DNA of 64,000 nt, taken from contig CANRBG010000005.1 in assembly GCA_947628805.1 (NCBI GenBank), forward strand, positions 1 through 64,000, read 5' to 3'. Each line of letters begins with the position of its first letter. Position 1 is the stretch's first letter. Positions 2,834 to 6,645 of this stretch are shown here, piece by piece. Source of the stretch: an uncultured Oscillospiraceae bacterium (GTDB lineage: Bacteria; Bacillota; Clostridia; Oscillospirales; Oscillospiraceae). The position numbers and the translations under genes are program-made. The notes beneath the pieces were generated by a model. The model made no database searches, had not been told where the DNA came from, and saw only the letters and a program-made list of their open reading frames with translations.

Positions 2834-3062
2834 AACCTACTCTTTAGACAAAAGGTGCTGGAAAGCAACAACTGAATAAACCCATAAGGCACCAGCCCTG
2901 ATGATGCTTCAGGGCGAGATATAATGTGCCAGCACTGTTTCAAACGCCATCAGCCCTGCTGGCGAAACAGTGGATGCAGGACCCGACTTTGACTTTCAAA
3001 GCCGATACATCATGATGAACCGAAGCGTTCCCCCCAAGGGGGAGGCCTAACCTTTTTTGAGG

Positions 3063-3108
3063 TCGGTACATCATCGTGATGTATCGGCTTTTTTCTTTTT
3101 TCTTTTTT
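3063..3108 (+). terminator. Rho-independent terminator (TACATCA-TCG-TGATGTA hairpin followed by T-tracts)
   Basis: Perfect stem then CTTTTTTCTTTTTTCTTTTTTC. Confidence 0.7.
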
Positions 3109-3420
3109 CTTCGCGTCCATGATCTCCCTACCGGCTTCGCCCGCTTTCGACAGCGGATAAATGCTAAATTTCAGGTATCCGGGAGATCCCTGCAGAGCTT
3201 TGGAAAAGCCGCCCCGGCACCTTGACAGCCGAATGACCGTGCAGGCGAGATATTTCCGCATTGGAGCAGACGTTCCGGTGAGACTCCGGGACAGGAACCG
3301 CGCCTGGAACAAACGGCAGGTTACTGCCCGAAAAAGCAGCGGCCCAGAGGGTGCCAACTCTGGAACCTTTCCCCATGTCGCGGGGTGCCAACTCTGGCAC
3401 TGCCAAACAAAAAGCGTATT

Positions 3421-3560
3421 ACGGTGCGGGGCATGCCCCGCACCGTAGCAAGCATCGTGTTTTGGGCCCAAAACACAGGCTGCTGGGATGATTCCCAGAC
3501 CCTTTAGAGGTTTCAGGATACGTCCTGAAAGGTGTTTTGTCCCCAAAACACGATGCTTGC
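3421..3560. repeat. Palindrome cluster upstream of parB-like gene
   Basis: 26-bp perfect palindrome ACGGTGCGGGGCATGCCCCGCACCGT (3421-3446); 20-bp palindrome GTGTTTTGGGCCCAAAACAC; 19-bp inverted repeat GCAAGCATCGTGTTTTGGG (3448-3466) / CCCAAAACACGATGCTTGC (3542-3560); smaller hairpins between. Confidence 0.9.
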
Positions 3561-3605
3561 GGGTATATTGCGTTTCAAATCATCACAGAGAAAGGATAAG
3601 ATAAC

Positions 3606-4514
3606 ATGAAATTAGACAGAAAGACTGTGAACGTCTCTATCAAAAACCTGCATCCCTTTGAGAGCAACCCCTATAAAGTCCAGGACGGAGAGGAAATGGA
3701 CAAGCTCATGGAGAGCATCCAGTCCCAAGGTGTCCTCACGCCCCTTGTCGTGCGGCCCATGGCGGACACCGCTATGGGCTACGAGGTCATATCCGGCCAC
3801 CGCCGTCTGGCCGCCTGTCAGAAACTCGGAATGAAGTCCATACCCGTCACTATCCAGCAGATGGATGATGACAAAGCCATGATTGCTGTGGTGGACGCCA
3901 ACCTCCAGCGCGAACACATACTCCCCAGCGAGAAAGCCTTTGCCTTCAAGATGAAACTGGAGGCGCTCAGCCACCAGGGCGTAACTTCTGCTCAAGTTGA
4001 ACAGAAGTTGTCCCGCGACGCCGTTGCCGGAGATGTGGGCATGAGCGGCGCACAGGTCCAGCGGTATATCCGTCTGACCAATCTCATCCCGGAGCTGCTG
4101 GAACTGGTGGATCAAGGAAAGATAGCGTTCACCCCAGCCGTACACCTGTCCTACCTGAACTCCCCGGAGCAGCGGTGGGTGCTGGAGGAAATGGAGAAAA
4201 ATGCCTGTTCTCCCTCCGTGTCCCAGGCGTACCACCTGAAAGAAGAAAGCCAGGCCGGAAGGCTGACGCAGGAACTGACCGCGGAAATGATGGCAAGAGA
4301 GAAGGCCAACCAACGGGAGAAGGTATCGTTCTTCTGCGATGACCTGCGCAAATTCTTCCCCGAATCGTATTCCGCCCAGGACATCCAGAAGGCAATTTTG
4401 AAAATGCTGGAGGACCGGGAGGCCAGCAAAAGGTGGGATGTGTCCGCCACTACCCGCACCGCTGCCAGCCGAGGCGCCAAGCCCCGCGCTACCTCCGACC
4501 GGGACGCCAGATAA
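3606..4514 (+). CDS. ParB/RepB/Spo0J-family protein (mobile-element type)
   Basis: ParB N-terminal domain (SIQSQGVLTPLVVRP...YEVISGHRRLAACQKLG) and HTH (GMSGAQVQRYIRLTNLIPELLELVDQGKIAFTPAVHLSYL). Confidence 0.9.
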   Translation: MKLDRKTVNVSIKNLHPFESNPYKVQDGEEMDKLMESIQSQGVLTPLVVRPMADTAMGYEVISGHRRLAACQKLGMKSIPVTIQQMDDDKAMIAVVDANLQREHILPSEKAFAFKMKLEALSHQGVTSAQVEQKLSRDAVAGDVGMSGAQVQRYIRLTNLIPELLELVDQGKIAFTPAVHLSYLNSPEQRWVLEEMEKNACSPSVSQAYHLKEESQAGRLTQELTAEMMAREKANQREKVSFFCDDLRKFFPESYSAQDIQKAILKMLEDREASKRWDVSATTRTAASRGAKPRATSDRDAR

Positions 4515-4520
4515 GAAGCT

Positions 4521-4790
4521 ATGCAGACAGACAGATTTATCGTGGGCTTTGGCCCCGACACGAACGAGTATGTCATAAACGGCGTCCGATATATCGTTGA
4601 GAGCCGGTATGAACCCACCGACTTCAAGCGTATGGAGAGTAATCGCCGTATCGACCACAGACTTGAAAAATATATCAAAAGCCCTTTGACAGATTTGCCG
4701 CTCTCTTCCGAGGGTGATACACTGAAGGCTGGATATGTGTGTTCGGCTGCCGGAAAGGAGGGCAATCATGCAGCCGAAGAAGAAAACTGA
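4521..4790 (+). CDS. Small hypothetical protein between parB-like and recombinase genes
   Basis: Intact ORF in co-directional cassette; overlaps recombinase start. Confidence 0.65.
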   Translation: MQTDRFIVGFGPDTNEYVINGVRYIVESRYEPTDFKRMESNRRIDHRLEKYIKSPLTDLPLSSEGDTLKAGYVCSAAGKEGNHAAEEEN

Positions 4791-6477
4791 ACAAATCGGG
4801 ATAACAGCGCTATACTGCCGCCTGTCCAGGGATGACGGTACGGAGTGCGACAGCAATTCCATCGCCAATCAAAAGCGTCTGCTTTCGTTGAAGGCAAAGG
4901 AAATGGGGCTGTCCAACACGAAATACTATGTGGATGACGGCTATACGGGGACGAACTTCAATCGACCCGGATTTCAGCAGATGCTCAGCGACATCGACAT
5001 GGGATATGTCTCCGCTGTGATGGTCAAGGACCTCAGCCGTCTGGGACGCGACTATGTTTCCGTTGGTCATTATACGGACAGCTATTTCCCTGACAGAAAT
5101 GTCCGCTTCATCGCCGTGAATGATTCCATCGACAGCGAGGAAGGCGAGAGCGAGATCGCGCCGTTCAAGAACATCCTCAATGAGATGTACGCGCGGGATA
5201 TTTCCAAAAAGGTGCGTTCATCCAACCGTCTGCGCGGAAACGCGGGAGAACCGCTGTCGCCGCCGCCCTATGGATATATGAAGTCCCCGGACGACAAGAA
5301 GAAATGGGTCATTGACCCGGAGGCGGCGGAGGTGGTCAGAAGCATCTTCAAAATGTGCCTTGACGGAAAAGGGAATGAAGCTATCGCAAGAACCCTGCAG
5401 AAACAGAAGGTCATGGTCCCAATGGCGTATTGGCAGAGCAAGGGACTTCCGAGGGGCGGCAAAAAGACGCAGACGAATCCGTACAAATGGTGTATGACCA
5501 CCGTCCAGAAAATCTTGGCGCAGCAGGAATACTGCGGGGACGTCATCAATTTCAGGACCTACTCCAAGTCGTTCAAGAACAAAAAGAGAGTCGAGAACGC
5601 CCCGGAGAATTGGGCGGTGTTCAAGGATGTCCATGAGCCGATTATTGAACGGAGCGTCTTTGAGCAGGTGCAGGCGCTCACAGCCAAGACCAAGCGCCGC
5701 GCTCCAAAGCCGGAAAACGGTGAAAAGAGTGTTTTCAGCGACCTGCTGTATTGCGGCGACTGTCACAGGAAACTGCGGTATCATACGAACACGATCAACA
5801 AGCGCATCCACTTTTTCGTGTGTTCAGATAACGCCATTGACTATCGTGGCAAATGCCCAACGCGCCACTATGTCCGGGCAGATGCCATAGAACAGGTAGT
5901 CTCGCTGGAGTTGCGGCGAATGGCGGTGATGCTGCGGGCCGATGAGGGAGCTTTTGCCGAGATGCTTGCGCAAAAGACCAACAAGGAGCTTGAGAAAGAG
6001 CAAAAACGGAACGAGGGCGAACTGCAAAAGGCGATTACGAGAAATGATACCGTGTCCAGGCTGTATGAGAAGCTGTACGAGGACAATGCCACGGGCAAGG
6101 TGAGCGACGAGTGGTTTATGCAGCTTTCCCATAAATACGAGGTCGAGCGGCTGGAACTGAAAGAAAAGATCGCCGAGCTTCGGAAAAGGCTTGCGGATTC
6201 GGGAAAACAGCAGCGCGGGCGCGAGAGCTTCATGAAAGCGATACGGCAGTTTATGCGGATGGAACGCTTGACCGCGCCTTTGCTCCGGGAACTGATAGAC
6301 CATATCGACGTGTTCGAGACGGAGGGCACAGGCAAGAACCGTACTCAGCGGATCGTAATCTATTATCGCTTCGTGGGCTATGTCGAAATACCGCCGACGC
6401 TGCCTCGCTCCAATTACAAGGCCGATACCCGCAAAGGCGTAGCTGTGGAGTACGTCACCGAACCAGCCGCAAAATAA
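4768..6477 (+). CDS. Large serine recombinase (resolvase/recombinase family)
   Basis: Resolvase N-terminus (ALYCRLSRDDG...DGYTGTNFNRPGFQQML...VKDLSRLGRDY), recombinase domain, zinc-ribbon-like LLYCGDCHRKLRYH, coiled coil, C-terminal RELIDHIDVFE. Confidence 0.95.
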   Translation: MQPKKKTEQIGITALYCRLSRDDGTECDSNSIANQKRLLSLKAKEMGLSNTKYYVDDGYTGTNFNRPGFQQMLSDIDMGYVSAVMVKDLSRLGRDYVSVGHYTDSYFPDRNVRFIAVNDSIDSEEGESEIAPFKNILNEMYARDISKKVRSSNRLRGNAGEPLSPPPYGYMKSPDDKKKWVIDPEAAEVVRSIFKMCLDGKGNEAIARTLQKQKVMVPMAYWQSKGLPRGGKKTQTNPYKWCMTTVQKILAQQEYCGDVINFRTYSKSFKNKKRVENAPENWAVFKDVHEPIIERSVFEQVQALTAKTKRRAPKPENGEKSVFSDLLYCGDCHRKLRYHTNTINKRIHFFVCSDNAIDYRGKCPTRHYVRADAIEQVVSLELRRMAVMLRADEGAFAEMLAQKTNKELEKEQKRNEGELQKAITRNDTVSRLYEKLYEDNATGKVSDEWFMQLSHKYEVERLELKEKIAELRKRLADSGKQQRGRESFMKAIRQFMRMERLTAPLLRELIDHIDVFETEGTGKNRTQRIVIYYRFVGYVEIPPTLPRSNYKADTRKGVAVEYVTEPAAK

Positions 6478-6522: not shown

Positions 6523-6567
6523 AAGAATTCGAGTGTTCATAAAGTGAAATCCCTTATGAACACTCGA
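6523..6567. repeat. 13-bp perfect inverted repeat (CGAGTGTTCATAA / TTATGAACACTCG) beside tRNA 3' end
   Basis: Direct reading; either terminator-like stem or recombination-site dyad. Confidence 0.7.
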
Positions 6568-6569
6568 AA

Positions 6570-6645
6570 TGGTCCGAGTGACTGGACTTGAACCAGCGGC
6601 CTGATGGTCCCAAACCACCCGCGCTACCAACTGCGCTACACCCGG
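6570..6645 (-). tRNA. tRNA-Pro (anticodon TGG), CCA encoded
   Basis: Reverse complement CCGGGTGTAGCGCAGTTGGTAGCGCGGGTGGTTTGGGACCATCAGGCCGCTGGTTCAAGTCCAGTCACTCGGACCA folds as a cloverleaf; loop TTTGGGA. Confidence 0.95.

Follow-up and report, generated by a model that had tools for sequence, protein, structure and literature searches.

Avila et al. are said to have described in 1996 two functional oriTs on the one element R6K, as is proposed here for the locus under study, although R6K is reportedly a self-transmissible plasmid and the present locus is an island. In the Lactococcus plasmid pRS01, a single oriT lies beside its own relaxase, LtrB, for which nicking is experimental; the oligonucleotide used to map the LtrB nick in vitro reads GTAAGATGCTATCATCTTAC-T-ATGCTTGC (PMC4256276). 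The oriT mimics of the pWBG749 type in S. aureus are served by a relaxase in trans, with several oriTs per element. Plasmids with two oriTs never have both on the same strand, and the first 17 residues of the ribbon-helix-helix (RHH) protein SmpO set oriT specificity (PMC4652767, PMC8136818). Relaxase-less IMEs, MGIs and iOriT elements are integrated islands that carry an integrase and an ICE-like oriT, and MGIs are best studied in Gammaproteobacteria (PMC5704250, PMC11389934).

We analysed a stretch of 64,000 nucleotides (the window) from an uncultured Oscillospiraceae bacterium, in which a dense palindrome cluster lies upstream of a ParB-like gene. Taking together sequence homology, position, compensatory changes, recurrence and one matching pair of ICEs, we consider it likely that this cluster is an opposed pair of oriTs in a probably relaxase-less mobilizable island of the iOriT/MGI type. 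The locus shares with pRS01 a 20-nt inverted repeat (IR), one nucleotide and then ATGCTTGC, but the IR sequence is unrelated and, unlike pRS01, the window has no single oriT beside its own relaxase. With the pWBG749-type mimics it shares the presence of more than one oriT per element, on opposite strands, and, in our model, a relaxase acting in trans and an RHH protein that sets IR specificity. Those mimics, however, are on plasmids, have the core CTTATGCTCTT and are not described as one compact conserved cassette. The window differs from the best-studied MGIs in belonging to Oscillospiraceae-type Clostridia and in having two opposed oriTs.

All the palindromes named in the preliminary description were found where it had placed them, far beyond chance, and we agree that the cluster contains no convincing coding region. 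Two of the palindromes proved longer than described: the 26-bp palindrome at 3421–3446 extends to 28 bp (3420–3447), and the 19-bp inverted repeat is one of 29 bp at 93% (3448–3476 and 3532–3560). The 20-bp palindrome (3457–3476), CTGGGA-TGAT-TCCCAG (3483–3498), TTTCAGGA-TACG-TCCTGAAA (3511–3530) and the twice repeated GGTGCCAACTCTGG (at 3350 and 3384) were present as described. A further hairpin, GTGTTTTG-TCCC-CAAAACAC at 3532–3551, had been overlooked. Because this segment is itself a hairpin, the block consists of two inverted copies of one unit, in which GATGCTTGC comes after a hairpin of 20 nt. Each unit also has an accessory hairpin in the space between the two copies, and the whole is thus an outward-facing cassette of 113 bp with the order nic-IR-hairpin-hairpin-IR-nic. 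The features of the locus are as follows.

3350–3401, + strand: two copies of the near-palindromic GGTGCCAACTCTGGCACC, a possible protein-binding site; the closest relative (L009) has two, one diverged, and L012 has one
3420–3447: perfect palindrome of 28 bp immediately beyond the left nic, possibly a terminator or protein site; at the same position, imperfect, in L009 and L012
3448–3560: putative dual-oriT cassette, in which two hairpin-IR-nic units stand back to back and face outward
3448–3476, − strand: putative left oriT core, IR GTGTTTTG-GGCC-CAAAACAC (3457–3476), then GATGCTTGC; nic predicted between 3449 and 3448, by analogy with pRS01 and from a homology breakpoint
3483–3498, − strand: accessory hairpin of the left oriT; equivalent hairpins occur in single oriTs
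3511–3530, + strand: accessory hairpin of the right oriT
3532–3560, + strand: putative right oriT core, IR (3532–3551) and GATGCTTGC; nic predicted between 3559 and 3560
3606–4514, + strand: ParB-like gene, in relatives directly downstream of mobC-relaxase
4521–4790, + strand: 89-aa ORF without a Pfam family
4735–6477, + strand: large serine recombinase with Resolvase, Recombinase, Zn ribbon and DUF4368 domains, the predicted excision and integration enzyme of the island
6528–6566: terminal inverted repeat at the right end of the island, TTCGAGTGTTCATAA...TTATGAACACTCGAA, adjoining tRNA-Pro (6570–6645)

The locus is an integrated island with ParB, a full-length serine recombinase and a right terminal inverted repeat. 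The left end matching 6528–6566 falls beyond the start of the contig, which begins inside the island. No relaxase was found on this contig, but one may lie further left, where the island is unassembled; the genome is 82% complete.

Counting perfect hairpins with arms of at least 8 and loops of at most 6, 82 bases in 3285–3605 were involved, compared with at most 43 in any of 1261 other intervals of equal size, making this the densest region of the window. As RNA, the region gave fold z-scores of −7.9 and −8.9 on the two strands, both far better than shuffles. The strong fold had suggested a structured-RNA leader for parB, a reading dropped because the two strands fold equally well and because the unit is also present away from parB and upstream of mobC in ICEs. 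An Rfam search gave no family at the palindrome locus, and BLASTN against plasmids and phages gave no informative match. Separately, the non-coding stretch 2880–3105 is also strongly structured, with long inverted repeats (e.g. GCCGATACATCATGATG / CATCGTGATGTATCGGC) and then T-runs; it is conserved in L009 and L012 and has no Rfam family.

A search of 401 family genomes for the unit pattern, allowing up to two mismatches, gave 17 places in 11 genomes, and the reversed control gave none. At seven loci it lies just upstream of genes for a NikA-like MobC and a PF03432 relaxase, and at two of these seven (the L087/L131 type) a VirD4-type coupling protein and then a TraG/VirB4-like ATPase are present as well. 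The mobC-relaxase pair seen in these seven relatives is absent at the window locus. Both sides of the window cassette read IR, G and ATGCTTGC, with the spacing of pRS01, and the nic core of the cassette units is GATGCTTG. Across 11 distinct sites the IR was always fully paired (100%). Compensatory double changes in the IR, in which the covarying outer pairs had been left free in the search pattern, numbered 11 cells, with 0 of 500 shuffles. Since the unit adjoins mobC-relaxase, has an architecture like that of pRS01 and keeps its IR paired by compensation, we take it, on sequence grounds, to be an oriT core of the MOBP type.

The preliminary description had offered an oriT, a parS-like centromere for the adjacent ParB or a replication origin. 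The first of these is strongly supported by the mobC-relaxase position in relatives, the nic match with pRS01 and the compensatory changes, though the presence of two opposed oriTs and the missing relaxase had escaped it. As for a replication origin, no Rep gene was seen adjoining the cluster. That the cluster serves as a centromere or operator for ParB is very improbable. ParB is adjacent and the palindromes lie upstream of its gene, and there is precedent in the ParB of plasmid NAH7, which acts in conjugation control, and in the KorA-like ParR of that plasmid, which binds the oriT region (PMC12421886). Against this, the 64 kb of the window contain no canonical 16-bp parS-like site within three mismatches, no ParA was seen beside parB, the cassette also turns up in islands that yielded no related parB, and parB also occurs without the cassette. 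In relatives, parB is merely the gene after the relaxase. The palindrome at 3420–3447 or the GGTGCCAACTCTGG repeats could still be candidate ParB sites. Relatives of this parB were absent from the viral contigs.

A parB of this type directly follows the relaxase in L009, L010, L011, L013–L018 and L020. The window element therefore belongs to a mobC-relaxase-parB-recombinase type from which mobC and relaxase are missing, with the dual cassette in their place. The closest relative with an intact operon is L009, whose ParB is 93% identical. Its homology to the window runs from 2754 to ∼3450, stopping at the left nic, and is followed by mobC and relaxase and then by parB; L009 bears an oriT different from that of the window. 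Such a break is what would be expected if a relaxase had mediated recombination between oriTs. In the ancestor of the window locus, the cassette would have taken the place of the lost mobC and relaxase, probably by recombination at nic. The preliminary description had proposed that its reading would fall if the segment were absent from other copies of the parB-recombinase module. The cassette is indeed absent from L009–L011, which carry mobC and relaxase, and present at the orthologous locus L012 (taken as contig C14 of genome G295), where the right IR shows a compensatory change. On that contig, both ends of an island of ∼27 kb are visible, marked by a 20-bp inverted repeat, and its right end is the same as 6528–6566 of the window. 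At L012, also seen as L089 8568–10145, a deletion has fused parB in frame to the recombinase (525-aa ORF), which suggests decay of that copy.

This fusion, the truncated recombinase of L009 and the decay seen in much of the family raise the question of whether the window cassette is a genuine oriT sequence left behind by a decaying element and no longer used, a reading to which the missing mobC and relaxase also lend weight. We regard it as unlikely, since the IRs are kept fully paired by compensatory changes, the nic core is invariant and the dual arrangement recurs in unrelated tyrosine-integrase islands and in other families.

Of 35 genomes of the genus, 4 contain the dual pattern, at five loci of which four lie beyond the window locus; it was also found in three genomes of other families among 396 genomes of the order (controls, 0 in both searches). 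Seven other loci of the order thus carry the dual cassette. Three of the loci in the genus have it flanked by a tnpV gene on one side and a tyrosine integrase on the other; one of these (L129) also has a NikA-like gene, and two have type I restriction genes. Queries with relaxases found none in the island regions with a dual cassette, or on the dual-cassette contigs of the genus; the PF03432 relaxases of these genomes are on other contigs. A single copy of the motif accompanies an integrase, again without relaxase, at L094, together with what by eye appear to be type III restriction genes. In viral contigs, 17 exact matches to the dual pattern were put down to chance, all of them being without hairpins.

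Dual and single oriT-like motifs were also observed between RHS/YD-repeat C-terminal modules and modules presumed to confer immunity, in positions that seem to mark their limits. The dual cassettes there are at L135 9932–10042, L136 118–230 and L137 154–267, with single copies nearby. PF03432 was undetected in two of the three genomes concerned (G655, G560 and G764) and gave a weak match in the third. One of them, G560, also has a dispersed intergenic repeat of ∼130–230 bp containing an IR and CGATGCTTG, with the same IR-nic core as the cassette. It is present in about six copies (L144, L150, L156, L160, L162 and L165) plus fragments at contig ends, and could form one end of some longer repeat. 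The RHS and G560 copies show that the cassette sequence also spreads or is kept where no relaxase is close by. They could also be read as a small, oriT-derived palindromic repeat of MITE or REP type that inserts between genes, near parB and among RHS modules as well as elsewhere. For the window this is quite improbable, given that its genome has a single such locus, that motif-bearing genomes of the genus have only 2–5 exact matches each, and that single copies adjoin mobC in seven ICE/IME loci.

Two SPECIFICITIES, the ICE-like loci C16 and C55 of genome G217, encode near-identical 509-aa relaxases, and over the aligned mobC-oriT stretch the two match completely or almost completely outside a block of ∼160 bp. 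This block comprises the first ∼26 MobC codons, the leader, the hairpin and the IR, and ends at the nic core CACGATGCTTG. G217 also has a relaxase-less cassette (C22), whose two IRs match those of C16 and C55 exactly, one each. At the few loci compared, by inspection, the IR type corresponds to the MobC N-terminal strand: IEIKVRL is found with TCCC/GGGA loops, and other strands with other IRs. This co-variation parallels the S. aureus system. In the window, the right IR with GATGCTTG is identical to the oriT of the ICE-like loci L087 and L088, both in one genome of the same genus; no matching helper was seen in the window's own genome (82% complete). The two window IRs differ in the loop alone, GGCC on the left and TCCC on the right, and this makes the two-helper reading weaker here than for G217. 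The two oriTs probably differ in helper specificity, and the island, which seems to have lost its own relaxase, could probably spread with the enzymes of two different helper elements.

We infer nicking, mobilization, the reading of the IR by MobC and the mechanism of origin in the following scheme. Each half would present a hairpin and then an IR read by the MobC/NikA-like RHH protein of the helper, after which a MOBP-type relaxase would cut the nic core. The recombinase would excise the island in circular form; a co-resident ICE would supply the MobC and relaxase that nick whichever oriT matches, and one strand would be exported via the T4SS of that ICE. The two halves face in opposite directions and carry different IRs; the opposed orientation would avoid the relaxase-mediated deletion suffered by same-strand oriT pairs. 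A broader proposal, which we advance only tentatively and hold to be somewhat doubtful, is that a cassette of ∼113 bp is standard in clostridial genomic islands, its two opposed oriTs differing in MobC specificity. It would be a dedicated device with which one relaxase-less island can ride helper ICEs of two incompatible families, and relaxases would exchange the cassette itself at nic, carrying it into RHS toxin loci as well.

Since the oriTs of most Clostridia are unknown, integrated elements that lack a relaxase are difficult to detect. The motif provides a searchable signature and a sequence link from islands to their candidate helper ICEs, and it predicts that the MobC N-terminal strand and the IR form a specificity code. 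It also suggests a possible route of movement for gut islands with restriction systems.

The window's own genome contains, on contig C58 (L101), a relaxase with a MobC-like gene and the oriT GCCGTTTG-TGCTAC-CAAACGGC plus ATACTTGC. Both the IR and the core (ATACTTGC) of this readable oriT differ from those of the cassette. Finally, comparison of L087 7273–7684 with L166 9550–9965 revealed a natural swap of the MobC N-terminus together with the oriT IR, between ICE regions of one genome that are otherwise near-identical.
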